Position numbers and translations under genes: made by a program
In this document: positions 8,549 through 54,441 of the stretch, piece by piece
How positions within the stretch are numbered: the stretch's first letter is position 1
Layout of the letters: the number at the start of each line of letters is the position of its first letter
Assembly (NCBI GenBank): GCA_026645575.1
Contig: JAPKMW010000027.1
Location: forward strand, 1 to 64,000
Direction: 5' to 3'
From: Caldilineaceae bacterium
GTDB lineage: Bacteria; Chloroflexota; Anaerolineae; Caldilineales; Caldilineaceae
Length of the DNA stretch: 64,000 bases
The notes under the pieces: generated by a model
Told to the model about the DNA's origin: nothing
Seen by the model: the letters and a program-made list of their open reading frames with translations, nothing else
Database searches by the model: none

Positions 8549-9776
8549 GTTGATCAAGGGCGATGACCGCTTCGGCCAGCACTTGGACGCCAAGGGCCAG
8601 GTCTTCCGGTTGGGTCAACTCTTCGGGAGCGTGGCTGCGACCATCAATGCTCGGCACAAAGATCATGGCTGCCGGGGCCATCAAGGCGACATAGTTGGTG
8701 TCGTGGCCGGCGCCGCTGGGGGTGACAATGGCGTTGGGGTCATGTTGTCGGCAGATGTGTAAGACCGTTTCATGGAGCCAGGCGGGCGGGATGACCGAAT
8801 CCATGCGCGTGTCGTTAAAAAGTTGATAGGTGACGCCTCGTTCGGCGCAAGCGGCGTCAACCACCGTCATCAACTGCGCCCACATGCCGTCAACCTCGTT
8901 CATATTCAGGCTGCGCATTTCGGGCATCATCGTCACCTGTTCGGCAATGACGTTGCCCTGGTTGGGACGCACCTCCACCTTACCGATGGTGCCGACTGTG
9001 CCGGGGTGGGCGCGGGCAATGTCTTCAACGGCACAGATCACGCGCGCTGCGGCGGCCATCGCATCCTGGCGCAGATCCATGGGTGTGGCGCCAGCATGAT
9101 TGGCCTTGCCGCGCAATTCAAGGACCGCGCGGCGAATGCCGACAATGCCGCTCACCGCCGCCAACCGTGCGCCCCGCGCTTCCAGCACCGGTCCCTGTTC
9201 GATGTGTAATTCGAGGGCTGCGGCGATTTCTCCCGGCTGCACCAGGCAGTGGCCTAATTGATCGGGCTGACCGCCCATATCGGCAATGGCTTGGCGCAGG
9301 GTAATCCCGTTGACTGTCCGTTCGAGCCAGGCCGCTTTGAAATGATTGGTATAGCGGGCCAGGCTCCCCATACAGGCAATTGCATAGTCGGTCGCTTCTT
9401 CGGAAAGATAGTCGGCCAGAATCAGCGGGTGGCGCAACTGGTAGTTGGCGTCGCGTAGCGTGCGTACAACCTCTAACCCGCCGATGACCCCCAATACGCC
9501 ATCAAAACGCCCGCCCCCCATGACCGTATCGGTGTGCGAACCAATATGGAGGGCTGGCAACGCCTCACGGCCAGGGGTGCGACCAAAGAGGTTGCCCACC
9601 GCATCTAATTCGGTTGTCAAGCCGGTTGCTTCCATTTGTTGGCGCAACCATTGACGACTGCGTTGATATGCTTCCGACGGAAAACGCCGTGTCCAGCCGG
9701 GGGTATCAGGTTCCGTAAATTGCGCCATCTCGGCAATCGTCGCATGGAGCCGTGACGCATTGATGGTAATTGTCAT
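8544..9776 (-). CDS. Zn-dependent hydantoinase/carbamoylase family amidase (allantoate or N-carbamoyl amino acid hydrolase)
   Basis: This 410-residue M20-type enzyme hydrolyses carbamoyl or ureido groups. Metal-ligand motifs are in place: HIGSHTDTV, GGRFDGVLG, an acidic LSEEATDY, LELHIEQGP and GAGHDTNYVA followed by GRSHAPEE. FTEPDTPGWTRRFPS at the N-terminus is typical. MTITINASRL at 9776 is chosen over more upstream in-frame codons because homology begins there. It lies 61 bases downstream of the YgeY-like gene and probably shares its transcript. Allantoate or carbamoyl-amino-acid hydrolysis fits the purine-salvage context; the exact substrate is inferred. Confidence 0.88.
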   Translation of the reverse strand: MTITINASRLHATIAEMAQFTEPDTPGWTRRFPSEAYQRSRQWLRQQMEATGLTTELDAVGNLFGRTPGREALPALHIGSHTDTVMGGGRFDGVLGVIGGLEVVRTLRDANYQLRHPLILADYLSEEATDYAIACMGSLARYTNHFKAAWLERTVNGITLRQAIADMGGQPDQLGHCLVQPGEIAAALELHIEQGPVLEARGARLAAVSGIVGIRRAVLELRGKANHAGATPMDLRQDAMAAAARVICAVEDIARAHPGTVGTIGKVEVRPNQGNVIAEQVTMMPEMRSLNMNEVDGMWAQLMTVVDAACAERGVTYQLFNDTRMDSVIPPAWLHETVLHICRQHDPNAIVTPSGAGHDTNYVALMAPAAMIFVPSIDGRSHAPEELTQPEDLALGVQVLAEAVIALDQQ

Positions 9777-9837
9777 GGTGATTTTGACCTTGCTCCAAGG
9801 TAACTGCGTAATTCGTAATTCGTGATTCGTAAACGGG

Positions 9838-11058
9838 TCACGCACGACGCTTTAACAGGTACGGAAAGAGTGCATAAAATTCTGTGGCCTTGACTACATC
9901 GTCAAGGGGGACGCTGTCTTCGGTGGTGTGGGCGGTCACTTCGTCGCCGGGGCCAAAGCCGATGGCCGGAATGCCCGCTTTGCCGGCCCAGTAAGTGCCG
10001 TTGGTGCTAAAATTCCACTTACCGCTGGGCGCCGCAGGTAGACCGATGGCTTCACGGGTGGCTTGGCCGGCTACGATCATCGGATGGTCAGCCGGGTAGG
10101 CCCAGGCCGGGAAATATTTGTCCACGGGCAAGACAAAGCCGGTGTAGCTCGGCTCGTCGTAAAAGAGTTCTTCCAGGGTGATTGTGTCGCGTTGGTCGGG
10201 CGGGATCAGGGCGGCGATCTGCGCTTTGACGGCTTCTTTGCTCTCGCCAAAGGTGATGCGCCGGTCGATAAAGATGGTGCATTCATCGGGGACAGCGTTG
10301 ATCGATGGCGTTTTGACCTGCATATCGCTGACGGTGATCTTGCCGTGGCCCAGAAATTCATGGTCGCCCAACTGCGGCTCCAGTTGGCTAATGGCAGCGA
10401 TAATCGGCAGCATCTTGTAGATGGCGTTGTCGCCTAGATGGTTGGAAGCGGCATGGGCGCTCTTGCCCTTGGCGGTGATTTTGAGTTCCAGCCGCCCCTT
10501 GTGGCCGCGATAGACCTGCATTTTGGTCGGCTCGCCGATGATTACATAGTCGGGGCGCAGCTTGGGGTCAACTTCGACAAAGCTGTTGGGGGCGATGCCG
10601 TCACACCACTCTTCCATATTGCCGAAATAGTAGAGGGTGTATTCGTCGGGGGAAATTAGGCCCAGGTCACGGGCCAGGGCGATGCCGTAGACCATGCCCG
10701 GCGTCGAGCCTTTTTCGTCGCAGGCGCCGCGGGCATAGAAGATGCCGTCTTCTACTTTGCCCACAAAGGGGTCCCATTGCCAGGCCGCTGGGTCGCCAAT
10801 GCCCACGGTGTCTACATGGCTATCGTAGACCAGCACGGTGGGGCCATGCCCGACGCGACCCAGGATGTTGCCCATGACATCAAAGCGTACTTCGTCAAAG
10901 CCCAACGCCGTCATCTCGGCAGCAATGCGTGTGCCGACGGCCTGTAGTTGACTCGCCATGCTGGGGATGGCACAGATGTCGCGCAGAAAGTGGATGATCG
11001 CATCCCGCCGCTGCTCGACTGCTTCATGCAATGCGTGTAACAATTCTGCTGAAATCAT
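9838..11058 (-). CDS. ygeY: YgeY-family M20 hydrolase linked to selenium-dependent purine catabolism
   Basis: This 406-residue metallopeptidase-fold hydrolase has DSHVDTVGIGDPAAW, YARGACDEKGSTPGM, YFGNMEEWCDG and IIGEPTKMQVYRGHKGRLE, which together mark the YgeY subgroup rather than generic ArgE/DapE. In other bacteria ygeY sits with selenium-dependent xanthine-type hydroxylase, ygeW/ygeX and yqeB/yqeC genes; the YqeB and YqeC relics here support that link. The start at 11058 (MISAELLHAL) has AGAGAAG upstream. The gene is divergent from an enolase-superfamily gene. The chemical reaction is not firmly established for the family. Confidence 0.85.
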   Translation of the reverse strand: MISAELLHALHEAVEQRRDAIIHFLRDICAIPSMASQLQAVGTRIAAEMTALGFDEVRFDVMGNILGRVGHGPTVLVYDSHVDTVGIGDPAAWQWDPFVGKVEDGIFYARGACDEKGSTPGMVYGIALARDLGLISPDEYTLYYFGNMEEWCDGIAPNSFVEVDPKLRPDYVIIGEPTKMQVYRGHKGRLELKITAKGKSAHAASNHLGDNAIYKMLPIIAAISQLEPQLGDHEFLGHGKITVSDMQVKTPSINAVPDECTIFIDRRITFGESKEAVKAQIAALIPPDQRDTITLEELFYDEPSYTGFVLPVDKYFPAWAYPADHPMIVAGQATREAIGLPAAPSGKWNFSTNGTYWAGKAGIPAIGFGPGDEVTAHTTEDSVPLDDVVKATEFYALFPYLLKRRA

Positions 11059-11116
11059 CGGTGCTTCTCTTTGCCGGATACATTGGTGATGGTGGTACAA
11101 TTTTGTTTACAGGTGA

Positions 11117-11147
11117 TTGCGTCAACCTAAAGAGTATTCTGTATAAA
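11117..11147 (+). promoter_or_regulatory. Candidate promoter for the enolase-superfamily gene
   Basis: TTGCGT at 11117-11122 and TATAAA at 11142-11147 are separated by 19 bases in the divergent spacer, about 60 bases upstream of the ATG at 11210. Spacing is slightly long. Confidence 0.35.
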
Positions 11148-11209
11148 ACAACAACTTTTGTCAAAACTGCTGCTGGTTGTGTGGCCCCTTCCAAAGAAAG
11201 CAAAGCAAG

Positions 11210-12613
11210 ATGCAAAGTGATATTCGTGTTCGTAGTGTTGAAACCTTCAAAGTCATGACCCGCTGCCGCACGCCGCTCAAGTTTGGCGCCGTGGTTGTCG
11301 ATGAATTGCCCATTGGCTATGCCCGTGTCACGGTGGAGAACCGGCATGGCCGGCTGGCGACCGGATGGGGCGCCATGTTTCTCATGGATTTGTGGGCCTG
11401 GCCGGTCTCCAAGGCGTCCCATGCGGCTAAGAATCAGGTGATGTGTGACCTCTTTGACGCCTACGCCCGGTTGATCGGCAGCTATCAACACTTTGGTCAT
11501 CCCATCGAGATTTTTATGGCGACCAAGGCTGATCTGCAACGGCTGAACGAGTCCATCTGCGCGCAGCTTACGCCGGGGGAAACCATGCCTTTTCTGGGCG
11601 CCCTCATCTGTGCCAGCCCGGTTGACCATGCGCTCCATGACGCCTTTGGGCAGGTCAACAGCATTGATTCCTACCGCGGCTATGGGCCGGAGTATATGGG
11701 TTTTGACCTTTCTCGCTATTTGGGCGATGCGTACCGGGGCGTCTACCCATCGCAATTCCTGCGCCAGGATTATGCACCAACCGTACCAGTTTTTCATCTG
11801 GTGGGCGGATTGGATCTCTTGCGCAAGAGCGAAGTCACTGCCGCTTTTCCACAAGATGGCATTCCCAATTCGTTGGATGAGTGGATTGCGCGCGATGGCG
11901 TTTTTTGTCTCAAGGTAAAGTTGCAAGGCCGCAACCTTGACTGGGACCTACACCGCACGCTGGAAGTTTCCCGCATCTACCACGAAGTACGCGCTACTGT
12001 GCGACCTGATCTGCCGGTTCGCCCCTATCTTACCGCTGACACCAACGAGCAATGCGAATCGCCCGAATACATGATCGAGTACCTGCACAAAGTGCGTGAA
12101 CAGGCGCCCCAGGTCTATGACGAAATTCTTTACCTCGAACAGCCGACCGAACGCGACTTGACGGCGCACCGCTGGGACATGCGAACGCTTGCCAAGTACA
12201 AACCGGTGCTGATCGATGAGAGTTTGTCCACCGTGGAGGATTTCAAATTAGCGATGGAGTTAGGCTGGTCGGGCATTGCGCTCAAAAGTTGTAAATGTCT
12301 CTCCTCTGATCTGCTCTTTATCCCGCTGGCCGAGATGAACCGGATTCCCTATGCCGTGCAGGATTTGACCAACCCTTCACTGGCCTTGATCGAATCGGTG
12401 GGACTGGCGGCGCGCTGTCATACGATTTTGGGCGTAGAAGCAAACTCCCGGCAATTTTTCCCGGCGGCCAATGAACTGGCCGCGGCTGTGCATCCGGGGC
12501 TGTACAACGTGCGCAATGGTGTCGCCAACACCGCAACGCTGCGGGGAACGGGGTTGGGGATGCAAGTAGAGAAACTGCCGGCGCTGGTCGCGTTCATTGA
12601 ACAGAACGGTTGA
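11210..12613 (+). CDS. Enolase-superfamily (mandelate racemase / muconate lactonizing-like) protein
   Basis: This 467-residue protein carries the enolase-superfamily barrel motifs in order: a KVKL lysine pair, the metal acids of TADTNEQ, LEQPT and IDESL, then ALKSCK and VQDLTNPSLALIES. These imply proton abstraction next to a carboxylate and dehydration or racemisation of an acid sugar or similar acid. It is longer than typical members (about 370-400), mostly through extra sequence in the first half (LTPGETMPFLGALICASPVDHALHDA). A divergent paralogue with the same layout is at 24505-25848. The ATG at 11210 follows a weak AGCAAAGCAAG ribosome site. Confidence 0.85.
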   Translation: MQSDIRVRSVETFKVMTRCRTPLKFGAVVVDELPIGYARVTVENRHGRLATGWGAMFLMDLWAWPVSKASHAAKNQVMCDLFDAYARLIGSYQHFGHPIEIFMATKADLQRLNESICAQLTPGETMPFLGALICASPVDHALHDAFGQVNSIDSYRGYGPEYMGFDLSRYLGDAYRGVYPSQFLRQDYAPTVPVFHLVGGLDLLRKSEVTAAFPQDGIPNSLDEWIARDGVFCLKVKLQGRNLDWDLHRTLEVSRIYHEVRATVRPDLPVRPYLTADTNEQCESPEYMIEYLHKVREQAPQVYDEILYLEQPTERDLTAHRWDMRTLAKYKPVLIDESLSTVEDFKLAMELGWSGIALKSCKCLSSDLLFIPLAEMNRIPYAVQDLTNPSLALIESVGLAARCHTILGVEANSRQFFPAANELAAAVHPGLYNVRNGVANTATLRGTGLGMQVEKLPALVAFIEQNG

Positions 12614-43013: not shown

Positions 43014-43074
43014 GCTCTTGGCGAGTCCGTGACTCGCCTTGGCATAGGGTGCGAGTCACGGACTCGCCAAGAGC
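43014..43074. repeat. REP-type palindrome GCGAGTCCGTGACTCGC, perfect 24-bp arms
   Basis: Arms 43014-43037 and 43051-43074 are exact inverse complements around a 13-base loop. The same core is repeated around the RAYT gene at 46614. Confidence 0.85.
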
Positions 43075-44263: not shown

Positions 44264-44362
44264 TACGTTTGACGATTGTGGGTTGCCTAGTTCGCCATCG
44301 GCTGTTATGATTACCTCGATTCGTAAACTGTAGTAAAGTCAAGGTAATTACCAAGCTAAACC

Positions 44363-44440
44363 CCTCCTAGCCTCCCCAGTTAAGGGGAGAAATTGTGTGC
44401 CGTCAACCATTCCCTCCCTTCTCAGGGGAGGGTTAGGGTG
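44363..44440. repeat. Palindromic element of CCCTCCTAGCCTCCCC type
   Basis: CCCCTCCTAGCCTCCCCAGT at the left faces GGGGAGGGTTAGGGTGGGG at the right. The same CCTCCCCC/GGGGGAGG word is tandemly inserted in the NACHT gene at 49773-49985. Confidence 0.6.
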
Positions 44441-46407: not shown

Positions 46408-46608
46408 CGCGCCACGGACTCGCTAGGAGCAGATTGTTCTGCTCCCAGCAAGTCCGTGGCTCGCCCTGCCCCGCTGCCCCAACCGCTCTGCGCGAGTCCG
46501 TGACTCGCCCTACCCCCGCCGCCCCAGCCGCTCTAAGCGAGTCCGTGACTCGCCCTGCTCCCGCCGCCCCAACCGCTCCAAGCGAGTCCGTGACTCGCCC
46601 TGCTCCCC
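46408..46608. repeat. REP array downstream of the RAYT gene
   Basis: Four copies of the GCGAGTCCGTGACTCGC core or close variants, spaced about 45 bases with CCGCC/CCCC-rich spacers, fill the gap between the sugar dehydrogenase and the transposase. Confidence 0.85.
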
Positions 46609-46613
46609 CACAC

Positions 46614-47168
46614 TTACATCAACTTCCGCACATCACTAATCGGAATCACCGTCCGCTTATTCGCCAAATAATAGCGCGCACTCGACCACATATACTGCTC
46701 AGCCCGATCCGCCAATTGCCAGCGTGATTGCAGCGGATTATGATGAATATACTCCATCTTCTGCCGCAGAAATCCCGGCGTGAAGACATTCGCCGCCTCA
46801 TACTCCGTCTCCCACACGGAATGTTCTTGATCATCCGGCGCCGCCTCCGCCAAAAAGGCCAGCACCGCCGCATTCTCTTCCGCTTCATAGTGACGAATAA
46901 TCAAATTGGCCGTCGCCTTCTTGTACTCACGAATCACCGTAATCGGCGTATGTCCTGTGCAGCAGCGCACAATAAAGTGGATATGGTTCGGCATAATCAC
47001 AAATGCATACAGTTCATACTGCCCCAGAATCCGCCCATTGTTCAAACAATCGACCAAGATCCGCTTGATCACATCCCGCTGGAACAGATGTACCCGTTTG
47101 ATGGCGCTGGTCGTAAAAAAGTAAAGATGTGTGGGGTCAATATGGACAGGCCACGTAGCGGAGGCCAT
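46614..47168 (-). mobile_element. REP-associated tyrosine transposase (RAYT, Y1_Tnp family)
   Basis: This 184-residue protein has the HUH motif in MPNHIHFIV (His62 and His64) and the nucleophilic tyrosine in MEYIHHNP (Y140), in the standard single-Tyr order. AAAGGA precedes the start. Arrays of the GAGTCCGTGACTC palindrome lie on both sides (46408-46608 and 47222-47577). RAYTs bind and cut REP hairpins as single-stranded DNA, so this protein is the likely source of the dispersed palindromes across the island. Confidence 0.92.
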
Positions 47169-47221
47169 AACGCTTTTCCTTTCGATCGAGAGCTTTTGAT
47201 TTTGTTCTTACTTGCCTGCGC

Positions 47222-47350
47222 TGGGTGAGTCCGCGGCGCGTTTCCTCAATCTCATCCCACCGGCTCCCCGCGAGTCCGTGACTCGTCCTGCTTGGCCGAA
47301 GTTACCAACGCTCAGCGTAACCGGCTCCCCGCGAGTCCGTGACTCGCCTT
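47222..47350. repeat. REP copies upstream of the RAYT gene
   Basis: Copies of CCCCGCGAGTCCGTGACTCG occur at about 47265 and 47328, with a diverged copy near 47225. Confidence 0.8.
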
Positions 47351-47516
47351 ACTCACCCCGCAAATATGCAGTTTGTTTGTGTTTGCTAGTTCCGTTACCA
47401 GACTAACAGTATCACAGAGTGTAGCCTATTAGGACGAAATTGTAAAATATTAAGTAAATCGTAAGTGATTGGGATGTAGATCCTATCAAGATGAACACTG
47501 GCTAGAGGAAACCAGG

Positions 47517-47577
47517 GCGAGTCATGGACTCGCGGGGAGCGGGATTGGGGCGAGTCACGGACTCGCGGGGAGCGGGT
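47517..47577. repeat. REP pair in opposite orientation, next to the DGR template
   Basis: Two GCGAGTCA(C/T)GGACTCGCGGGG copies with GGAGCGGG tails stand in the orientation opposite to those at 47222-47350. They end about 20 bases before the template-RNA promoter. Confidence 0.8.
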
Positions 47578-47595: not shown

Positions 47596-47625
47596 TTGGT
47601 GAAATTGTTCGGGCTTCGGTATAAT
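47596..47625 (+). promoter_or_regulatory. Promoter for the DGR template RNA
   Basis: TTGGTG at 47596-47601 and a consensus TATAAT at 47620-47625 with an 18-base spacer. The expected start near 47632 is at the left edge of the template repeat. Inferred from sequence only. Confidence 0.55.
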
Positions 47626-47631
47626 GGACAT

Positions 47632-47960
47632 GGGCGGCGACCATCAGGTGCGTTGTGCGTACCGCAACAGGAACAATCCCAGGAACAGGAACAACAACGT
47701 CGGGTATCGCCTCGCCAGCACCTCTGTCAATAGATAATGGACAATGAATAATGGTTAATGTTGTCCAGCAGCGACGCCAGGTCAGAAATGTCGGCGCGCT
47801 ACGGCCCGCCGACCGCGATCAAACGAAGAGAGGTCCAGGACGCTGTCCCGGTCTGGTTGCGTAGGCCACCAGGCCAAAGAAGCTAGGCCCGTTCGTCTTT
47901 TAGTAACCGCAGGGCGACCACCGGCGGACGGGCTGCTTTGGTAAAAAGACAAGCCGGCAA
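47632..47960 (+). ncRNA. Candidate DGR template RNA (template repeat plus structured 3' spacer)
   Basis: No convincing gene lies between the RAYT gene and the NACHT gene. Downstream of the template the sequence holds good hairpins: TGGACAA/TTGTCCA (47738-47744 with 47761-47767), GTCGGCG/CGCCGAC (47790-47796 with 47807-47813), and GCCCGT/ACGGGC in 47885-47935. In studied DGRs a structured spacer 3' of the template binds Avd and the reverse transcriptase and primes cDNA synthesis, so I infer the same here. Extent is approximate. Confidence 0.55.
47648..47720 (+). repeat. DGR template repeat (TR)
   Basis: Positions 47648-47718 align without gaps to 51001-51071 in the NACHT gene (offset 3353). 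The central codons are AAC AGG AAC AAT CCC AGG AAC AGG AAC AAC AAC. None of these can mutate to a stop by changing only A. The last 17 bases before the end (GTCGGGTATCGCCTCGC) are the likely initiation anchor. Confidence 0.93.
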
Positions 47961-47972
47961 CACGATCCCACC

Positions 47973-48051
47973 GCTCGTAGCCAGTCCGTGACTGGCGTTA
48001 AGGGATGCCAGTCACCGGGACCCCTTCGGGGGTGTGGCTACGAGCAGCAAG
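47973..48051. repeat. Palindromic element upstream of the NACHT gene
   Basis: GCTCGTAGCCAGTCCGTGAC at the left, with GTGTGGCTACGAGC at the right and an inner ACCCCTTCGGGGGT hairpin. It is related to the elements at 39405, 22262 and 51654. Confidence 0.7.
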
Positions 48052-48072
48052 TCGATACGATAGGAAGATCAC

Positions 48073-51000
48073 ATGCGCGACTCCCCCCAGCCCCCAACCC
48101 AACCTCCGGCCCAGCCCCCGGCCCAATTGTCAACCACCATCGGTGGCAATGTCAACCTGCGTGATGGGCATTTTATCGGGCGCGATTACAACCACCTGGA
48201 AGTGCATTTTAGCGGCGCTGAATTACAGACGCTATTCAGTGAACTCTTGCCCCTCTTGCGCAGCGCCGATGGCCGCGTGGCCGATGGCGTTGTCACCGCG
48301 CAGGGGCAAAGCCTGACGGTGACCGCGGCGCAAGCCGAAGCCCTGGGCCAATATTTGCTTACCAACAGCCAGCGCGACCGCGGCGAACGGGAACTACACT
48401 ACCTGACCCGCCTCTGCATCGACCCGACCTACCAGCAATGGCAACGGCGTTATACGCCCCTCTCCGGCGGCTATCGCCCCGCGCCCCAACTTGACCCGCG
48501 CTTTAGCGAGATTCTGGTGCGCGGCGACGGCCCGCAACGGCAGATTGAGCGCATCCACCTGCCTGACATTCGCGATGCCCTGGAACGCCATGCCAGCGCC
48601 GTTCTCCTGGCCCAACCGGGTGCGGGCAAGACGACGGTCTTACAGCGCCTGCTGCTTGATCTTGCCCTGCAACGGCTGCAAAGTCAGCAGCCAGGCGCCG
48701 CGGCCAAACCGGCGCGCCTGCCCTTTTTCGTGCGGCTGGCAGCGCAACTGCCTGACGAAAGCCCGCTCGCCTTTTTGACCCGCGCCTGGCAAGCGGCTTT
48801 GCCCGGCGCCCATCGCGATGCCGCCGCTGAGTTGACCCAGGCGCTCCAGCGGGGCGAACTCTGTCTGCTCTGTGACGCCCTCAACGAGGCGCGGCGCGAC
48901 CGCTACGCCGAGCGCATGGCCGACTGGCGCGACTTTGCCCGCGACCTGCCCGCCGGCAACCGGCTGCTCTTTACCTGTCGCAGCCAGGATTATTATGGCG
49001 AGTTGGCCGTGCAACAGGTGGAGATTGACCTGCTCACCCCGGCGCAGATTGCCGACTTCTGTCGCCGCTACCTGGACGAGGCGCACGGGGCAGCACTCTG
49101 GCAAACGCTGCAAAACGACCACGCCGCCCTCCTGCCGCTGGCCGCCATTCCCTACTACCTGCTCATGATCGTCGAAGTCTATAGCGCCGACGGGGCGTTG
49201 CCGACCCAACGCGCCCGCCTCTTTGAGCAATTTGCCCTGCGCCTGCTCCAACGGGAAGCGGAAAGACGCCACGCCGACTGGATCGAACCGGCGGCGCAAC
49301 ATTGGCTGCTGGGCGAATTGGCCTTTGCCATGCAAGCGCTGGGGGAAGGCACCGAAGTGAGCCGCGATTGGGCGATCAACACGCTGCCGGCCACGGTGAC
49401 GCTGCCCAAAGGCCCACCCCTCCCCACCCCGGCGGCAACCCTTTTACGCCTGGGCTGCGCCGCCACCCTCCTGAGCGAAACGCCCAGCGGCGGCTTCAAA
49501 TTTGCTCACCATCTGCTCCAGGAATATTTTGCCGCCGAAGCCCTCTTGCGCCACCACCAACAGGGTGCGGATCTCAGCGACAAATGGCGCGTCCCCAGCA
49601 CTGTGCGCGCCATGCCGCCGGCAGAACGAGGCCAATGGGACCCGCTGCCCGGCCCGCCCACCAGCGGCTGGGAACAGACGACGATCCTGGCCGCTGGTCT
49701 CTACCCGGCCTTGATCGAGACGGTGTTGCCGGTCAACCCGGCGCTGGCAGCGCGGTGTCTGTTGGCGCAAGGTGGACCCCCTCCCAGCCTCCCCCAGCTT
49801 GGGGGAGGAGCCATTGGCGCTGCGTTGCTGGTGGAACCCCCTCCCAACCTCCCCCAGTTTGGGGGAGGAGCCATTGGCGCTGCGCTGCTGGTGGAACCCC
49901 CTCCCAGCCTCCCCCAGCTTGGGGGAGGAGGAGTGGTCCCGCCGACGAGTTCACGGCTCCCTCCCCAAACTGGGGAGGGCGGGGGAGGGGTTAGGCATGG
50001 CGCTCAACAAGCCTTGTTAGCCCGCCTGGGCAACGTCGCCATCCACCTGCGCAGCCGGATCGAGGCCGGGTTGTTGCTGGGCAAGTTGGGCGATCCGCGC
50101 TTCCCGGTCGAGACCATCAAGGGCGTCCAGGTGATCCTGCCACCGATGGTCAACATTCCAACCGCCACCGCCACCATTGGCAGCGGCTGGTGGGACCGTC
50201 AGGCGAACCGCGATGAAAAGCCACGCCACACCGTCAACCTGGCCGCCTATGCCCTGGGGCGCTACCCCGTGACTAATGCCGAATATGCTTGCTTTATGGC
50301 CGCCGGCGGCTATGAAGAGGAGCGCTACTGGACGACCGGCGGCCAATATTGGTTGCGGGGCGAACCAGTGCCGGGGGAAGAAGATCCGATTGATTGGTGG
50401 GTGCGAACTTGGCAACGCCGCAAAAAGAATCCGGCGGAGATCGATGAATCGGTGAAAAAGGGGTGGATGACCGAACGCGAGGCAGAGGGATGGCGCGCTC
50501 TGATTACGTGGCCGGAAGAACGGGCATTAGCTCAGTTTCGTGAATGGTATCCAACTGGTCAAACCTATCGTGAACCACGCTACTGGCAAGATGACGCCTT
50601 TAACAACCCCAGTCAGCCCGTTGTCGGCGTCTGCTGGTACGAGGCGATGGCCTACGCTGCCTGGCTGGCAACCCTGACCGGCGACCCCTACCGGCTGCCC
50701 AGCGAAGCCGAATGGGAGTGGGCAGCGCGGCGGGGCCGGCGGCTCTACCCGTGGGGTAATTTCTGGGATGCAACCAAGTGCAATAGCCTGGAAGAGCGAG
50801 TTATGCGCACCACGCCTGTCGGTGCCTACCCCCACGGCGCTACACCCGATGGCCTCTTTGACCTGAGCGGTAATGTCTGGGAGTGGACCGTTTCGCTGAA
50901 TAGCGACTACCCTTACCAGCCAAACACTGGGCGCGACGCGGCGGACGTTACAGGGCTTCGCATAAACCGTGGCGGCGCATGGGACTCTAGTCAACAAATG

Positions 51001-51087
51001 GTGCGTTGTGCGTACCGCAGCTGGGGCTATCCCTGGAACGGGCTCAACAACGTCGGATATCGCCTCGCCAGGCTCCCTCCTTCGTAG
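48073..51087 (+). CDS. DGR target: NACHT-type NTPase with C-terminal formylglycine-generating-enzyme (FGE-sulfatase) domain
   Basis: This 1004-residue protein has four parts. Residues 20-47 hold a Pro-rich lead and the motif GNVNLRDGHFIGRD. Residues 150-480 form a NACHT/STAND-like NTPase with Walker A GAGKTT (183-188) and Walker B LLCDALNE (D268). Residues 566-637 are a repetitive Pro/Gly linker made by a DNA repeat. Residues 690-1004 are an FGE/SUMF1 C-type-lectin-like domain (YPVTNAEYACFM, RLPSEAEWEWAARRG, DLSGNVWEWT). The end, RINRGGAWDSS to the C-terminus, is the variable repeat. AGGAAG precedes the ATG. STAND NTPases sense ligands and trigger effectors; the hypervariable lectin fold is the probable sensor. 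Confidence 0.93.
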   Translation: MRDSPQPPTQPPAQPPAQLSTTIGGNVNLRDGHFIGRDYNHLEVHFSGAELQTLFSELLPLLRSADGRVADGVVTAQGQSLTVTAAQAEALGQYLLTNSQRDRGERELHYLTRLCIDPTYQQWQRRYTPLSGGYRPAPQLDPRFSEILVRGDGPQRQIERIHLPDIRDALERHASAVLLAQPGAGKTTVLQRLLLDLALQRLQSQQPGAAAKPARLPFFVRLAAQLPDESPLAFLTRAWQAALPGAHRDAAAELTQALQRGELCLLCDALNEARRDRYAERMADWRDFARDLPAGNRLLFTCRSQDYYGELAVQQVEIDLLTPAQIADFCRRYLDEAHGAALWQTLQNDHAALLPLAAIPYYLLMIVEVYSADGALPTQRARLFEQFALRLLQREAERRHADWIEPAAQHWLLGELAFAMQALGEGTEVSRDWAINTLPATVTLPKGPPLPTPAATLLRLGCAATLLSETPSGGFKFAHHLLQEYFAAEALLRHHQQGADLSDKWRVPSTVRAMPPAERGQWDPLPGPPTSGWEQTTILAAGLYPALIETVLPVNPALAARCLLAQGGPPPSLPQLGGGAIGAALLVEPPPNLPQFGGGAIGAALLVEPPPSLPQLGGGGVVPPTSSRLPPQTGEGGGGVRHGAQQALLARLGNVAIHLRSRIEAGLLLGKLGDPRFPVETIKGVQVILPPMVNIPTATATIGSGWWDRQANRDEKPRHTVNLAAYALGRYPVTNAEYACFMAAGGYEEERYWTTGGQYWLRGEPVPGEEDPIDWWVRTWQRRKKNPAEIDESVKKGWMTEREAEGWRALITWPEERALAQFREWYPTGQTYREPRYWQDDAFNNPSQPVVGVCWYEAMAYAAWLATLTGDPYRLPSEAEWEWAARRGRRLYPWGNFWDATKCNSLEERVMRTTPVGAYPHGATPDGLFDLSGNVWEWTVSLNSDYPYQPNTGRDAADVTGLRINRGGAWDSSQQMVRCAYRSWGYPWNGLNNVGYRLARLPPS
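49773..49985. repeat. In-frame 60-bp tandem palindromic repeat inside the NACHT gene
   Basis: Two full copies and one partial copy of an exact 60-bp unit encode the 20-residue repeat EPPPSLPQLGGGAIGAALLV. Each unit contains the perfect hairpin CCTCCCCCA-GCT-TGGGGGAGG. A facing CCCCAAACTGGGGAGG segment follows at 49960-49990. It stays in frame and is probably an inserted intergenic element turned into a linker. Confidence 0.85.
50971..51077 (+). other. DGR variable repeat (VR) with anchor
   Basis: The aligned core 51001-51071 differs from the template at nine sites before the anchor: 51020, 51022, 51025, 51026, 51028, 51034, 51040, 51043 and 51044. All nine are A in the template (four A to G, four A to T, one A to C). 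They change residues 983-986, 988, 990 and 991. The anchor differs by one G to A at 51057, as expected for non-identical IMH versions. Confidence 0.93.
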
Positions 51088-51153
51088 CCGTTGTCCGCTG
51101 TCCTTTGTCCCCTGTCCCCTGACCCAGATCAGCCTGCGCGGCGTGACCCGCCC

Positions 51154-51180
51154 CGCCCCGAAGGGGCGTCGCCAAATTTT
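51154..51180 (+). terminator. GC hairpin downstream of the variable repeat
   Basis: CGCCCC-GAA-GGGGCG (51154-51168) is followed after six bases by a run of T. It may terminate the NACHT transcript; a hairpin shortly downstream of the VR is also required for retrohoming in some DGRs. Confidence 0.5.
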
Positions 51181-51196
51181 TTGCAGGGCCAATCCC

Positions 51197-51276
51197 GCTC
51201 TAGGCGAGTCCGTGACTCGCCCTACTTCCTTAACCCGCCCCCGCTCATGGCGAGTCACGGACTCGCTGAGAGCGGG
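51197..51276. repeat. REP pair after the NACHT gene
   Basis: Facing copies GGCGAGTCCGTGACTCGCCC and GGCGAGTCACGGACTCGCTG with flanking CGCTCT/AGAGCG. Confidence 0.8.
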
Positions 51277-51288
51277 TATAGGCATAGC

Positions 51289-51636
51289 TTACCCTTTGCG
51301 CCAGGCGCCCAGCAACTTGCCCACCTGGTTGAGCAGATTGGCGCCCTGCTCATATTGCTTGGTGTTCAAACAGCGCAACTCATGGGCCAGCCGTAGTTGG
51401 AGACGCAGCGTATCCAGCGTCACATCGGCTTGGAGCAACGTTTCGGCACGGGCGGGGCCGGTCACTTTGCGGGCGCGGATCAACTGGCTGTGGCAGAGAA
51501 AGGCGCTATCCAACAGCCGGCTACCCAGCAGAAAGCGTTGGGCGCGCGGAAACTTTTCGACACAGGGGATCAGCCAGGTGGTGAAATCATAGAGCCGGGC
51601 AAAGACCGGTGCTTCGTTCATCGGTTGGGTGGTCAT
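51289..51636 (-). CDS. avd: Avd: DGR accessory four-helix-bundle protein
   Basis: This 115-residue, all-helical, basic protein has the Avd-type pattern: LYDFTTWLIPCVEKFPRAQRF, then RLLDSAFLCHSQLIRARK, LLQADVTLDTLRLQLRLAHELRCLNTKQYEQGANLLNQVGKLLGAW. Avd proteins form a pentameric barrel that binds the reverse transcriptase and template RNA. AGAGGAAA precedes the start. It lies just downstream of the reverse transcriptase gene on the same strand, separated by a small palindrome. Four-helix proteins found in rRNA intervening sequences look similar, but the neighbourhood settles the call. Confidence 0.92.
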   Translation of the reverse strand: MTTQPMNEAPVFARLYDFTTWLIPCVEKFPRAQRFLLGSRLLDSAFLCHSQLIRARKVTGPARAETLLQADVTLDTLRLQLRLAHELRCLNTKQYEQGANLLNQVGKLLGAWRKG

Positions 51637-51653
51637 AAGACAATTTCCTCTGC

Positions 51654-51696
51654 CGCTCGTAGCCAGTCACCGGGAACCCTGGTGTGGCTATGAGCG
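51654..51696. repeat. Palindrome between avd and the reverse transcriptase
   Basis: CCGCTCGTAGCCAGTCACCG faces TGGTGTGGCTATGAGCGG; same family as 47973-48051. Confidence 0.7.
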
Positions 51697-51702
51697 GAAC
51701 TG

Positions 51703-52761
51703 TTATGATAAGACAATCTCCTTTAACAAGCGACGGCGCAACTGATAGGTGTCGCCGTGGCTGGCGTGGGCGATCCAGGCGACGAGGGCCTGACGAAATT
51801 GGGCTGCGCTCATCCGGCCGGCCTGGTAGGCTTTGCGGTAGCGCTGCAACCGTTGGCGCGCCAGCCGTACATTGTCACTGCGCAGCCGGCGATGGGTGGG
51901 AAAGAGGCGAAAGCCCAGAAAGGGAATGCCGGTGCGGGTCGGGTAGACCACTGACCGTCGCCAGTTGAGACAGAGACGTAGGCCGGCCAGGTGATCCTGC
52001 ACGGCTTCTTTCCAGGCGTGCAACTGCGCTTTGTCGTGATGAAAGAGCAGAAAGTCATCGGCATAGCGGACATAGGCGCGACACTTCAATTCCCGCTTGA
52101 CAAACTGATCGAGCGAATCGAGGTAGATGTTGGCCCAACTCTGTGAGGTGAGGTTGCCTACGGGCAGGCCGCGTGGCCGCAACACCGCAAAGAGATCATC
52201 GCCGGGGAAATATTCCATGGTATACATGGGGGTGAGAATGCCGGCGCCGCCGGCCAGGATCTGCTCAATGAGCCAGAGGGTGTCGGCGTCGCGAATCCGG
52301 TGCGCCAGCTTTTCATAGAGAATGGCGTGATCGATGGCGGGGAAGAATTGGTGAACATCGCACTGCAGGACATAGGGGTGGCCGCGGGCAAAGTGCTGGG
52401 CGCGGTCGAGCGCTTTGTGCGTCCCTTTGCCGGGCCGGTTGGCGTAGGTGTCGTGGATGAAACGGCGCTCCCAAATGGGGTTGATCACGGCGCAGAGGGC
52501 GTGGTGGACGACGCGATCGCAAAAGGGCGCAGCGCTGATCAGCCGCAGTTTACGTTCGCGGATGTAGAAATTGCGGTAGGGGCCGGGGCGGTAGCTGCGC
52601 GTTTGTAAGTCGGTCTGGAGTTGGAAGAGGTTGGCTTCCAGGTCAACTTCAAAGGCGGCGATTTCGGCGCGGTCCCGTTTGCCTTTGCGCGCTTTGCGAA
52701 AGGCGGTGTGGAGGTTGGCAAAGGCGGTGATGGTGGGGTAGAGGTTGCAATAAGTTTGCAT
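51703..52761 (-). CDS. DGR reverse transcriptase
   Basis: This 352-residue enzyme copies the template RNA with errors at adenines. Palm motifs are complete: catalytic Asp135 in LQCDVHQFF, and YADD at 233-236 in VRYADDFLLF. Between them, GLPVGNLTSQSWANIYL has SQ at 206-207 where retroviral and group II intron enzymes have QG, a known mark of DGR enzymes. The maturase and thumb-X regions of group II intron proteins are absent. AAGGAT is six bases before the ATG. It precedes avd and follows the caspase-like gene on the minus strand. Confidence 0.95.
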   Translation of the reverse strand: MQTYCNLYPTITAFANLHTAFRKARKGKRDRAEIAAFEVDLEANLFQLQTDLQTRSYRPGPYRNFYIRERKLRLISAAPFCDRVVHHALCAVINPIWERRFIHDTYANRPGKGTHKALDRAQHFARGHPYVLQCDVHQFFPAIDHAILYEKLAHRIRDADTLWLIEQILAGGAGILTPMYTMEYFPGDDLFAVLRPRGLPVGNLTSQSWANIYLDSLDQFVKRELKCRAYVRYADDFLLFHHDKAQLHAWKEAVQDHLAGLRLCLNWRRSVVYPTRTGIPFLGFRLFPTHRRLRSDNVRLARQRLQRYRKAYQAGRMSAAQFRQALVAWIAHASHGDTYQLRRRLLKEIVLS

Positions 52762-52798: not shown

Positions 52799-52943
52799 GG
52801 CGAGTCACCGGTTGCCTTTTAGGCGCGCCGGGAGCGGGGAGTGGGTTGGGGTGGTGGGGAGTCGGGGCGAGTCACGGACTCGCGGGGAGCGGGTCGGGAG
52901 CGGGGGCCAGGGCGAGTCACGGACTCGCACAGAGCGGGTACGG
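52799..52943. repeat. REP array upstream of the reverse transcriptase
   Basis: Two intact GGGCGAGTCACGGACTCGC copies and one diverged copy, with GGAGCGGG tails. The gap 52762-53037 contains no gene and no second template repeat. Confidence 0.8.
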
Positions 52944-53037: not shown

Positions 53038-54441
53038 TTATTCAGTCAACTTGCCCAGCACATACCGGGTGACTGGCCCGATGGCGGGGGCGAGGGCCGG
53101 TTGGTTGAAGGTGAGGGTGAGAATCGGTGCCGCGCCAGGCAGCAGGGCGGCGAGTTGTTCGATTTGGCGGGCCAGACGTTGATCGTTGGCCTGGGCGCCC
53201 TGTTGGGCTTCGCTTTGGATGACTTGGACGACAGCCAAGACGGCAGTGCGTTGGGTCGGTGGCGCGACCTGCGCAAGGGCGATGAGCGCGGCAAAGTGTT
53301 GATCGATCTGGCTGCCGCCGCTGGTTGTGGCCGTGGTGTTGCGGGTATGGGAGCCAATGGCGACGCCGGTATTGCCGGTCATGTTGCCAATGGTGATCTT
53401 GTCGCCGCGCACAGCGTCGCCGTAGGTGATCTGGTCGCGACCGACAAAGTCGCCTTTGTCCACCCGCACGTTGCCGCGGATGTAGGCGCCGCCACCAGTG
53501 TTGATCGTGGTGGTTGTCCAGGGTGTAGGCTCGGCGGGAAGATCATGCAACGGATCGGGGGCGGTTGCCCCTTTGGCCAGCCCTTTGCCACCCAGCAGCC
53601 GGGCAACGGGAAAGTTGCCGCTGATGAGGTAATCAGGCGTCTGCGCGGCCTGCCAATCGGTTTGGGCGCTGGCTGGCACGCGACGGTAAACATGGCTGAC
53701 AATATCCGAGACCAAGACATCGGTCGCGCCCTGGGCTGGCTGGGCATGGCCGGTGAGCGCTTCGATCAGGTGATAGGTGAAGATGCTCATGGCGCCATCT
53801 CTGCGCAGGTAAGAGGGTTGATCACCCTGAGACGAGCTGAGGATGGCGCGCCCGGCGCCGTTTTCCAATGTCTCTATCCCTTTGGCGCCAATGGTGGCCG
53901 GCGTTACCCCCTTGCCGTCGCTCAAGATCTGGCGCGGCGCGGCGGCGGGAGTGTAACCCTTGATCAATGGCGTCACTTCCTTCACCCCCATCCCCGCGGC
54001 GTGACAGCAGTCCAGCGCCACCAACAGCCGCTTGGGCTGTACCTCGCGGATCGTATCGGCAAAGGCATCGGCGCGCAACGCTGAGGCGGCCAGCCCAAAC
54101 TCTTTGGCATCATAGGGAATCAGGTAAAACACCGCATTGGCATCATTGCTGGTGCGCCAACCATGCCCGCTGTAGTAAATCACGACCGTCGCATTGCCGC
54201 TCTTATCAGCGGATAATTTTTCGTGTAGCCAAAATAAGCCTGCAATAATGCCATCATGTGTAGCTGCTTTGCCGGTAATCTGCTTGACATGTTCAGTGCG
54301 ATAGGCGCAGCGCTCTGGGCTGGTCAAGACAGCAGCAAGCGCCGCAATGTCTTTGTTGACGGCAGGCAGAGCAAATCTGGCAACGGCATTCTCATCAACA
54401 CCGATCAATAGGGCATAACCGTGGTCAAAATAGGTGGACAT
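53038..54441 (-). CDS. Caspase-like (peptidase C14) protease with C-terminal GNV-GDFVGRD adaptor region
   Basis: The ATG at 54441 (MSTYFDHGYALLIGVDEN) has AAAGGA upstream and gives 467 residues. The caspase p20 core is complete, with catalytic His93 in YYSGHGW and Cys146 in ALDCCHAAG. After the protease domain (to about 280) come GNVRVDKGDFVGRDQI (331-338 hold GDFVGRDQ) and further Gly/Asp/Ile repeats (YGDAVRGDKITIGNMTG), then a helical C-terminus of about 95 residues. The same motif opens the DGR target. It is the likely death effector of the island. Confidence 0.9.
   Translation of the reverse strand: MSTYFDHGYALLIGVDENAVARFALPAVNKDIAALAAVLTSPERCAYRTEHVKQITGKAATHDGIIAGLFWLHEKLSADKSGNATVVIYYSGHGWRTSNDANAVFYLIPYDAKEFGLAASALRADAFADTIREVQPKRLLVALDCCHAAGMGVKEVTPLIKGYTPAAAPRQILSDGKGVTPATIGAKGIETLENGAGRAILSSSQGDQPSYLRRDGAMSIFTYHLIEALTGHAQPAQGATDVLVSDIVSHVYRRVPASAQTDWQAAQTPDYLISGNFPVARLLGGKGLAKGATAPDPLHDLPAEPTPWTTTTINTGGGAYIRGNVRVDKGDFVGRDQITYGDAVRGDKITIGNMTGNTGVAIGSHTRNTTATTSGGSQIDQHFAALIALAQVAPPTQRTAVLAVVQVIQSEAQQGAQANDQRLARQIEQLAALLPGAAPILTLTFNQPALAPAIGPVTRYVLGKLTE

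Follow-up and report, generated by a model that had tools for sequence, protein, structure and literature searches.

Introduction

Targets in which a C-terminal C-type lectin (CLec)/FGE domain is fused to a STAND/NACHT NTPase, with protease genes nearby, have been described for the diversity-generating retroelements (DGRs) DGR 3 and DGR 6 of Thiohalocapsa PB-PSB1, which belong to clade 5D (Doré et al. 2024, PMC10907252, accessible part). The same text reports that Thiohalocapsa DGR loci bear transposons, and that arrays similar to miniature inverted-repeat transposable elements (MITEs) replace DGR parts. Here, we analysed a DGR in a 64,000-nucleotide stretch of a Caldilineaceae bacterium genome (GCA_026645575.1, contig JAPKMW010000027.1, positions 1 to 64,000; hereafter the window), which its sequence confirms to be of a known kind, the NACHT-FGE DGRs. 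As far as the accessible text describes the Thiohalocapsa and clade 5D DGRs, the window shares with them a target with a central STAND/NACHT and a C-terminal CLec region, a nearby protease gene and the presence of transposon-related sequences and repeats. Unlike the Thiohalocapsa loci, it has the template repeat (TR) and the target gene on the strand opposite the genes for the accessory variability determinant (avd) and the reverse transcriptase (RT), palindromes similar to repetitive extragenic palindromic (REP) elements beside a gene for a REP-associated tyrosine transposase-like (RAYT-like) protein, and a caspase-like neighbour and a GNV..FVGRD motif instead of a named adaptor (EAD) domain.

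In the DGR of Bordetella phage BPP-1, the target is a phage tail-fibre protein and the order is avd-TR-RT, and both are unlike the window. The two systems agree in having an RT, Avd, a TR and a variable repeat (VR) in a lectin-fold protein, as well as a structured RNA predicted after the TR in the consulted part of the BPP-1 work (PMC8867640). Inversion of the RT relative to TR and VR has been catalogued as group G5 among 122 DGR cassette patterns (PMC6642488); the window resembles group G5 in its inverted RT, and the available portion of that catalogue mentions no connection with REP palindromes. In multicellular bacteria, VMAP and related ternary conflict systems have also been described, in which DGR-linked FGS/FGE domains occur together with NTPases and with peptidases of the caspase-like type (Kaur et al. 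2020, PMC7159879, in the sections consulted). The window shares with them the set of FGE, NTPase and caspase-like proteins, but a Pfam scan of nine neighbourhood proteins found no vWA or MoxR partner. The layout of the window is uncommon, the template-RNA unit being displaced yet complete, and the DGR is apparently intact.

Results

Template and variable repeats

The TR, including its 3′ anchor GTCGGGTATCGCCTCGCC, occupies 47647..47718 on the plus strand (72 nt), and the VR lies at 51000..51071 on the same strand, where it encodes residues 977-1000 of the 1004-aa target. The original prediction, made by a model from the letters of the window, had aligned 47648-47718 with 51001-51071 without gaps (offset 3353) and had placed all nine differences ahead of the anchor at template adenines; the alignment was exact on recheck, with one extra identical base at its left, and the recomputed list of differences agreed exactly. 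From TR to VR, A changed to G at 47667, 47672, 47673 and 47687, to T at 47669, 47675, 47681 and 47691, and to C at 47690. Over the 72 positions there were 10 differences in total, the tenth being a G to A change in the 3′ anchor, in which TR and VR are otherwise the same (the anchors were compared by sequence as a putative initiation-of-mutagenic-homing, IMH/IMH*, pair). Given an adenine content of 20/71 in the TR, the probability of at least 9 of 10 differences falling at adenines is 1.9e-5 (hypergeometric). The resulting codon changes at target residues 983-991 are N>S, R>W, N>G, N>Y, R>W, R>G and N>L, confirming the variable residues S, W, G, Y, W, G and L that had been read at the end of the target. 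Eleven TR codons ahead of the anchor carry adenines; they can encode about 1.85e10 variants, and a stop codon is possible from none of them.

No further TR or VR copy was found on either strand of the 64-kb window, the next best candidate having mismatches at 22 of 51 non-A positions, and a search for a second TR near avd and the RT found none. The TR DNA pattern gave 0 matches in viral contigs. We considered whether the 72-nt TR is a truncated form, as many relatives have TRs of 110-130 nt, and dropped this idea, the TRs of the near relatives L195 and L237 being 72 nt, that of L198 73 nt and that of L199 65-75 nt.

Variation in homologous proteins

Variation away from template adenines had been named in the original prediction as an observation that would speak against a DGR, and on this point homologous proteins gave a favourable outcome. 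The three nearest homologues of the target, P0122, P0123 and P0124, differ from it at 64/961, 108/976 and 121/962 aligned positions over the whole protein. At the template-adenine codons, they differ at 6/11, 11/11 and 8/11 positions, as compared with 16/286, 33/286 and 40/286 at the other FGE positions (Fisher 3e-5, 2e-10 and 3e-5, respectively), while the constant positions of the VR differ at 0/13, 1/13 and 0/13. As judged from these protein sequences, hypervariation is concentrated at the template-adenine codons, far above the rest of the same domain.

The template codons also predict which amino acids can appear. A template AGG can give only NGG, and therefore W, R or G alone is expected; a template AAC or AAT can give only NNY, and therefore 15 amino acids are expected, never W, M, Q, K or E. 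This codon-set test presumes that the homologues have the same template codon pattern, and it was applied to the first 48 of 120 homologues listed among 4079 matches. The three AGG sites carried W, R or G in 134/144 cases, whereas these three amino acids make up 25% of the FGE residues. At the seven AAY sites, 331/335 residues fell within the NNY set, compared with a background of 78% in the FGE domain. Without five frameshifted or atypical-looking proteins (P0154, P0161, P0163, P0165 and P0169), which were chosen by eye after inspection, the counts were 127/129 and 300/300. Because template AGG sites should yield W, R or G and nothing else, the codon-set test offers a way to read DGR activity from protein databases, with no need for sequencing reads.

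Avd and reverse transcriptase

An avd gene (51289..51636, minus strand, 115 aa) lies beside the repeats; its product passed the cut-offs of NCBIfam NF033474 (DivGenRetAVD, 91.1 bits versus 80) and Pfam bAvd (67.2 versus 40) and was also assigned to PHROG 3206. The adjoining RT gene (51703..52761, minus strand, 352 aa) encodes intact LPVGNLTSQ (at 199) and YADD (at 233) motifs; the SQ motif marks the RTs of DGRs. The best match of the RT among solved structures was 8ub7 (E 3.7e-51), which we take to be the BPP-1 enzyme. Its NCBIfam matches were group II intron, retron and models similar to defence-associated reverse transcriptases (DRTs), every one under its cut-off, and in PADLOC it matched many RT models. 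The RT search of viral contigs returned 76 loci with a best identity of 48%, all more distant than the genomic relatives. The Avd gene and the SQ-type RT that had been read beside the repeats are thus both present. Of the claim that the DGR is complete, the presence of all parts holds, with RT, Avd and TR intact as read; its activity is an expectation from sequence.

Layout compared with relatives

In the window, TR and target lie on the plus strand and avd and RT on the minus strand, and the TR is beyond the target as seen from the RT, 4 kb away. This arrangement, the conserved RNA tail, the NACHT nature of the target and the caspase-like gene beside the RT had gone unnoticed in the original prediction. 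For comparison, we collected loci from genome contigs by RT similarity (the best 80 of at least 512 confirmed) and added 15 loci, which were the best-scoring places when 46 genomes from the same order as one of the relatives were searched. L040 proved to be the same place as L205 and was left out of the 72-locus counts and of the search with the RNA model described below. TR/VR pairs were sought on both strands. As the finder discards pairs with more than a few non-adenine mismatches, its total of 1045 adenine versus 15 other mismatches (71 rows) has selection built in and was not used as evidence. A pair was detected in 72 distinct loci including the window, and none in 23 loci. TR and RT share one strand in 70/72 loci, with a median gap of 374 nt and a largest gap of 989 nt (71 rows, the L040/L205 duplicate included); the exceptions are the window and L208. 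In L208 (region 9600-12000), the TR lies opposite a frameshifted RT, and the VRs stand on both strands and differ from the TR at 15 and 13 adenines and at 0 other positions.

The five nearest relatives, of the Caldilineales (L195, L196, L197+L237 on two contigs of genome G034, L198 and L199; RT identity 60-74%), share with the window avd, FGE targets and a TR that is about 72 nt long and has a similar anchor. Unlike the window, all five have the order RT>avd>TR on a single strand, with the TR cut in L196 and avd on the second contig in G034. A target stands upstream of the RT in four of them, the L198 contig ending at that point, and a target stands downstream of the TR in L196, L198, L199 and G034. 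The window target is closest to the targets ahead of the RT: over NACHT, it shares about 56-58% identity with those of L195, L196 and L197, compared with 25-27% for the targets after the TR of L196 and G034. G034 has one TR that pairs with three VRs, each on a different contig; the mismatches number 10, 12 and 12, and 34/34 of them are at A, indicating that a template need not adjoin its target. The TR-like stretch of L196 (9034-9420, genome G047) stops after about 22 nt, and two targets remain there. Another contig of the same genome (L236) bears a TR/VR pair that has an RNA tail of its own, and no RT match was found in that stretch.

Inverted repeats coincide with the joints of this layout. 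The TR-target block is bracketed by 47514-47548/51189-51223 (89% complementary) and the avd-RT block by 51194-51223/52909-52938 (93% complementary over 30 nt).

Template RNA: promoter and structured tail

A perfect -10-like hexamer, TATAAT, was read directly at 47620..47625 (plus strand) and offers weak evidence for a possible template-RNA promoter; L195, L196 and L237 have a CACAAT/CATAAT-like hexamer in a comparable position. A consensus promoter scan of 47.2-48.2 kb gave three matches, none directly upstream of the TR, and did not report the TATAAT box.

Downstream of the TR, at 47823..47933 on the plus strand, a conserved structured 3′ domain of the template RNA with a terminal stem GCCCGUUCGUC/GGCGGACGGGC was recognised by a covariance model, R1. 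The model was built from a sequence-only alignment (A4) of 11 relatives from which the window was excluded. It matched the window at 42.7 bits (E=1.4e-10) with zero model pairs flagged as non-standard, the next best match in the 64 kb having E=0.11. A4 was reduced from an alignment of 17 sequences (A3) by removing L001, L009, L015, L017, L021 and L031, whose alignment in the 3′ stem was wrong or weak, and L005 had been located but never put into A3 or A4; R1 matched all seven of these sequences (E 1.9e-11 to 0.0023). In the terminal stem of A4, 9/12 pairs have changes on both sides. Over the whole structure, 34 cells changed on both sides, compared with 10.0 +/- 2.3 in shuffles (0/500 reach 34), and the covariation score was 0.643 versus at most 0.168 for slid versions. 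The A4 sequences had been trimmed by eye so that they stop at the 3′ stem, and the covariation count is therefore not free of selection; better evidence for the RNA tail comes from the slid controls and the held-out matches.

R1 was then run on 94 other loci plus the window, and matches at E<=1 were kept. There were 50 further matches, 51 with the window, and 36 of the 51 stand 40-126 nt downstream of a TR and on its strand, in 36/72 TR loci. Eleven of these 36 had trained the model, and the other 25 include the window. The remaining matches were 5 elsewhere and 10 in loci without a detected TR pair. The tail was matched in the nearest relatives except L196, where the TR-like stretch is cut short. 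R1 offers a means to find templates displaced from their RT. In genome G030, which has no match to the RT of the window, three template-RNA tails were seen (L239, L240 and L241); they may be orphan templates, or the RT may have diverged, or the assembly may be incomplete.

In the sections consulted, the TR of BPP-1 is likewise predicted to be followed by a structured RNA (PMC8867640), and in Nostoc the TR RNA is highly expressed, with its up- and downstream parts predicted within the complex (PMC12691664). Given these precedents, the idea of an RNA tail is not new. A covariance model of the tail for these DGRs may be new, although an earlier description is possible, the literature covered being partial; literature joining covariance models with DGRs concerns DRT systems, going by the abstracts. 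In Rfam, no family matched the tail within 46.4-53.1 kb, and three microRNA-family matches below their gathering scores were taken as chance.

Target protein and caspase-like neighbour

The target gene (48073..51087, plus strand) encodes a predicted sensor of 1004 aa with a NACHT domain (Pfam, residues 180-336, 27.5 bits, barely over the cut-off of 26.7) and an FGE/C-type-lectin-like domain (FGE-sulfatase, residues 690-1000, 163.1 bits) whose final residues are encoded by the VR. Among solved structures, the FGE domain matches FGE-like enzymes; its match to the Treponema denticola variable protein 2y3c is weaker (E 2.3e-5). An AlphaFold model made with a 40-sequence alignment had a mean pLDDT of 88.8 and matched the fold of EgtB/FGE structures (TM-score about 0.54-0.65 by query length, among the 50 matches listed). 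Domain match and model fold agree with the earlier placement of the VR at the end of a C-type-lectin-like FGE fold. The target is weakly similar to the antiphage NACHT protein EruA (48 bits, far under the cut-off of 1000), and no PADLOC model matched the target or Avd. Several of the nearest named relatives are proteins of Caldilineaceae or of Caldilinea metagenome-assembled genomes, which makes a host from this group probable; P0123 comes from Caldilinea sp. CFX5.

The next gene on the RT strand (53038..54435, minus strand, read as 465 aa) encodes a caspase-like protease (Pfam Peptidase_C14, 58.1 bits; a PADLOC caspase model also matched) and is a predicted effector. Its product and the target N-terminus have a GNV..F[IV]GRD motif in common. 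In L196, a CHAT protease adjoins the second target; it carries a closely similar motif and has the same C-terminal region as the window caspase (32% identity, E 1.5e-13). NACHT/STAND targets of DGRs have been proposed as antigen sensors (PMC10907252, accessible part). The sharing of the motif and of the C-terminal region supports, but does not prove, that the target and the caspase-like protein form a sensor-protease pair. DGRs that rewrite NACHT-type sensors are candidates for bacterial anticipatory immunity.

Discussion

Proposed mechanism

The adenine-biased divergence of TR and VR, the protein families, the RNA tail and the variation of homologues at adenine codons are best explained, with a probability of about 0.8, by a DGR with intact parts whose RT is predicted to miscopy template adenines and thereby to rewrite the end of the NACHT-FGE gene. 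The template RNA would be made from its own promoter, and so the TR could be used by RT-Avd in trans, from the other strand and beyond the target. From this RNA, the RT would make a copy mutated at adenines, for which the 3′ end of the NACHT-FGE gene would be exchanged. In the protein, the variable FGE patch may bind ligands, the NACHT domain may act as the switch, and the caspase-like neighbour may be the effector. As to the layout, inverted copies of the REP-like palindromes may have recombined and flipped the TR-target block or the avd-RT block relative to the other. One inversion of either block accounts for the opposite strands. We infer that a single inversion leaves the order of TR before target unexplained, unless the ancestor had a target after the TR; because the window target resembles the targets ahead of the RT and not those after the TR, at least one more rearrangement event seems needed. 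If the DGR is active, template and enzyme need share neither strand nor operon.

A more tentative idea, which we consider possible but more probably wrong than right, is that such DGRs consist of separately movable blocks (a template-RNA gene with promoter, TR and tail; the target; and avd-RT), each bounded by REP elements, which inversion re-orders while mutagenesis continues, the tail being a new RNA family across Chloroflexota DGRs. If so, the tail would allow templates to be located even after they had moved.

Several observations weigh against the proposed mechanism or parts of it. Between TR and VR, the anchor change at 47704 (G>A) is the one difference away from adenine. The homologues are clustered metagenome proteins compared at the protein level, they come from another population, and their own templates and layouts were unseen. 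Residue 994, a GTC codon here without a template A, varies in the more distant homologues; it is constant in P0122-P0124, the L195 template has AGG there, and the templates of some distant homologues may differ at this place as that of L195 does. Avd gave no convincing sequence match to solved structures, and no good -35 hexamer was found before the TATAAT box. In the RNA tail, nine pairs with two-sided changes were equalled in 11/500 shuffles, the second helix, hairpin H3, is poorly supported (60.5% of cells paired), and 36/72 TR loci have no R1 match near the TR. On the immune side, the motif shared by target and caspase is 16 residues long (BLAST E 0.005), and a Pfam scan of the N-terminal 200 residues of the target gave no named adaptor (EAD) domain.

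Alternative explanations

An ordinary duplication with random divergence and no retroelement has practically no chance of being correct: the repeat exists, nothing else counts for it, and against it stand the adenine bias (9/10 differences), the codon-set test, which strongly contradicts it, and the 34/34 A mismatches between one TR and three VRs in G034; moreover, RT and Avd adjoin the repeat pair. The opposite strands raise the question of whether the DGR was recently silenced, a rearrangement having severed the TR from the RT-Avd operon and left the VR as a relic of former activity. TR and RT do stand 4 kb apart in a palindrome-rich region, the RT of the only other opposite-strand locus found, L208, is frameshifted, and the TR-like stretch of L196 breaks off. 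However, RT, Avd and TR are intact as read with a single non-adenine difference accumulated, the RNA tail of the window still fits R1, the TR of G034 serves targets on other contigs, and the nearest homologue, P0122, whose locus layout was unseen, differs at 6/11 variable codons, and we regard silencing as unlikely. Somewhat less probable still is that the layout is an assembly error at palindromic repeats and that the true order is the ordinary one, RT>avd>TR along a single strand. Inverted repeats of about 30-45 nt do stand at the joints, but such repeats are generally shorter than typical reads or assembly words, and the window sequence is continuous. Moreover, in the relatives with a whole TR (L195, L198, L199 and L237) the TR follows avd, whereas in the window avd borders the repeats and then the target end, and therefore more than one wrong join would be required.

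The role of the target is open to a stronger challenge, namely that the NACHT-FGE protein serves recognition or attachment (e.g., of kin or surfaces) instead of immune sensing, and that the caspase-like gene is a mere neighbour. DGR-diversified lectin folds act in phage attachment, and the target has neither a named adaptor domain by Pfam nor a PADLOC match. On the other side stand its NACHT domain, the weak EruA similarity and, in the two loci inspected (the window and L196), a caspase-like or CHAT protease that adjoins the DGR, the two proteases having a C-terminal region in common. In its accessible part, PMC10907252 also associates such DGRs with conflict systems. We consider this challenge rather improbable, and an immune role of the DGR target would be the better expectation.

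Palindromic repeats and the RAYT-like gene

The palindromic element GCGAGTCNNNGACTCGC occurs in the window in 13 copies with at most one mismatch, compared with 0.01 expected, and 11 of them lie within 46.4-53.0 kb; no exact copy was found in 245 other related loci. A left block of 7 copies (46492..47566) flanks the transposase gene and reaches the TR. One pair (51204..51266) stands between target and avd and is part of one arm of the inverted repeats I11 and I19, and a palindrome search located another pair (52867..52928) upstream of the RT gene. The RAYT-like gene (46614..47168, minus strand, 184 aa) lies among the copies of the left block, with palindromes on both sides; its product matched Pfam Y1_Tnp (31.2 bits, cut-off 23) and NCBIfam REP_Tyr_transpos (77.7, slightly below the cut-off of 80). 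No paper linking a DGR with a REP-associated tyrosine transposase was found in the literature searched. The RAYT-like gene and its flanking palindromes (46492-47566) are a possible REP-generating unit.

A different palindrome, CCTCCCCCAGCTTGGGGGAGG, occurs in a 60-nt unit of three copies (the others 95% and 70% like the first) at 49776-49992, in frame within the target gene. The stretch sits between the NACHT and FGE domains (PPSLPQLGGG...), and P0122-P0124 have differing versions of it; a similar piece was seen at 44358-44377. Two more palindromes were found at 43021-43067, directly before an RlmD-like 23S rRNA methyltransferase gene.

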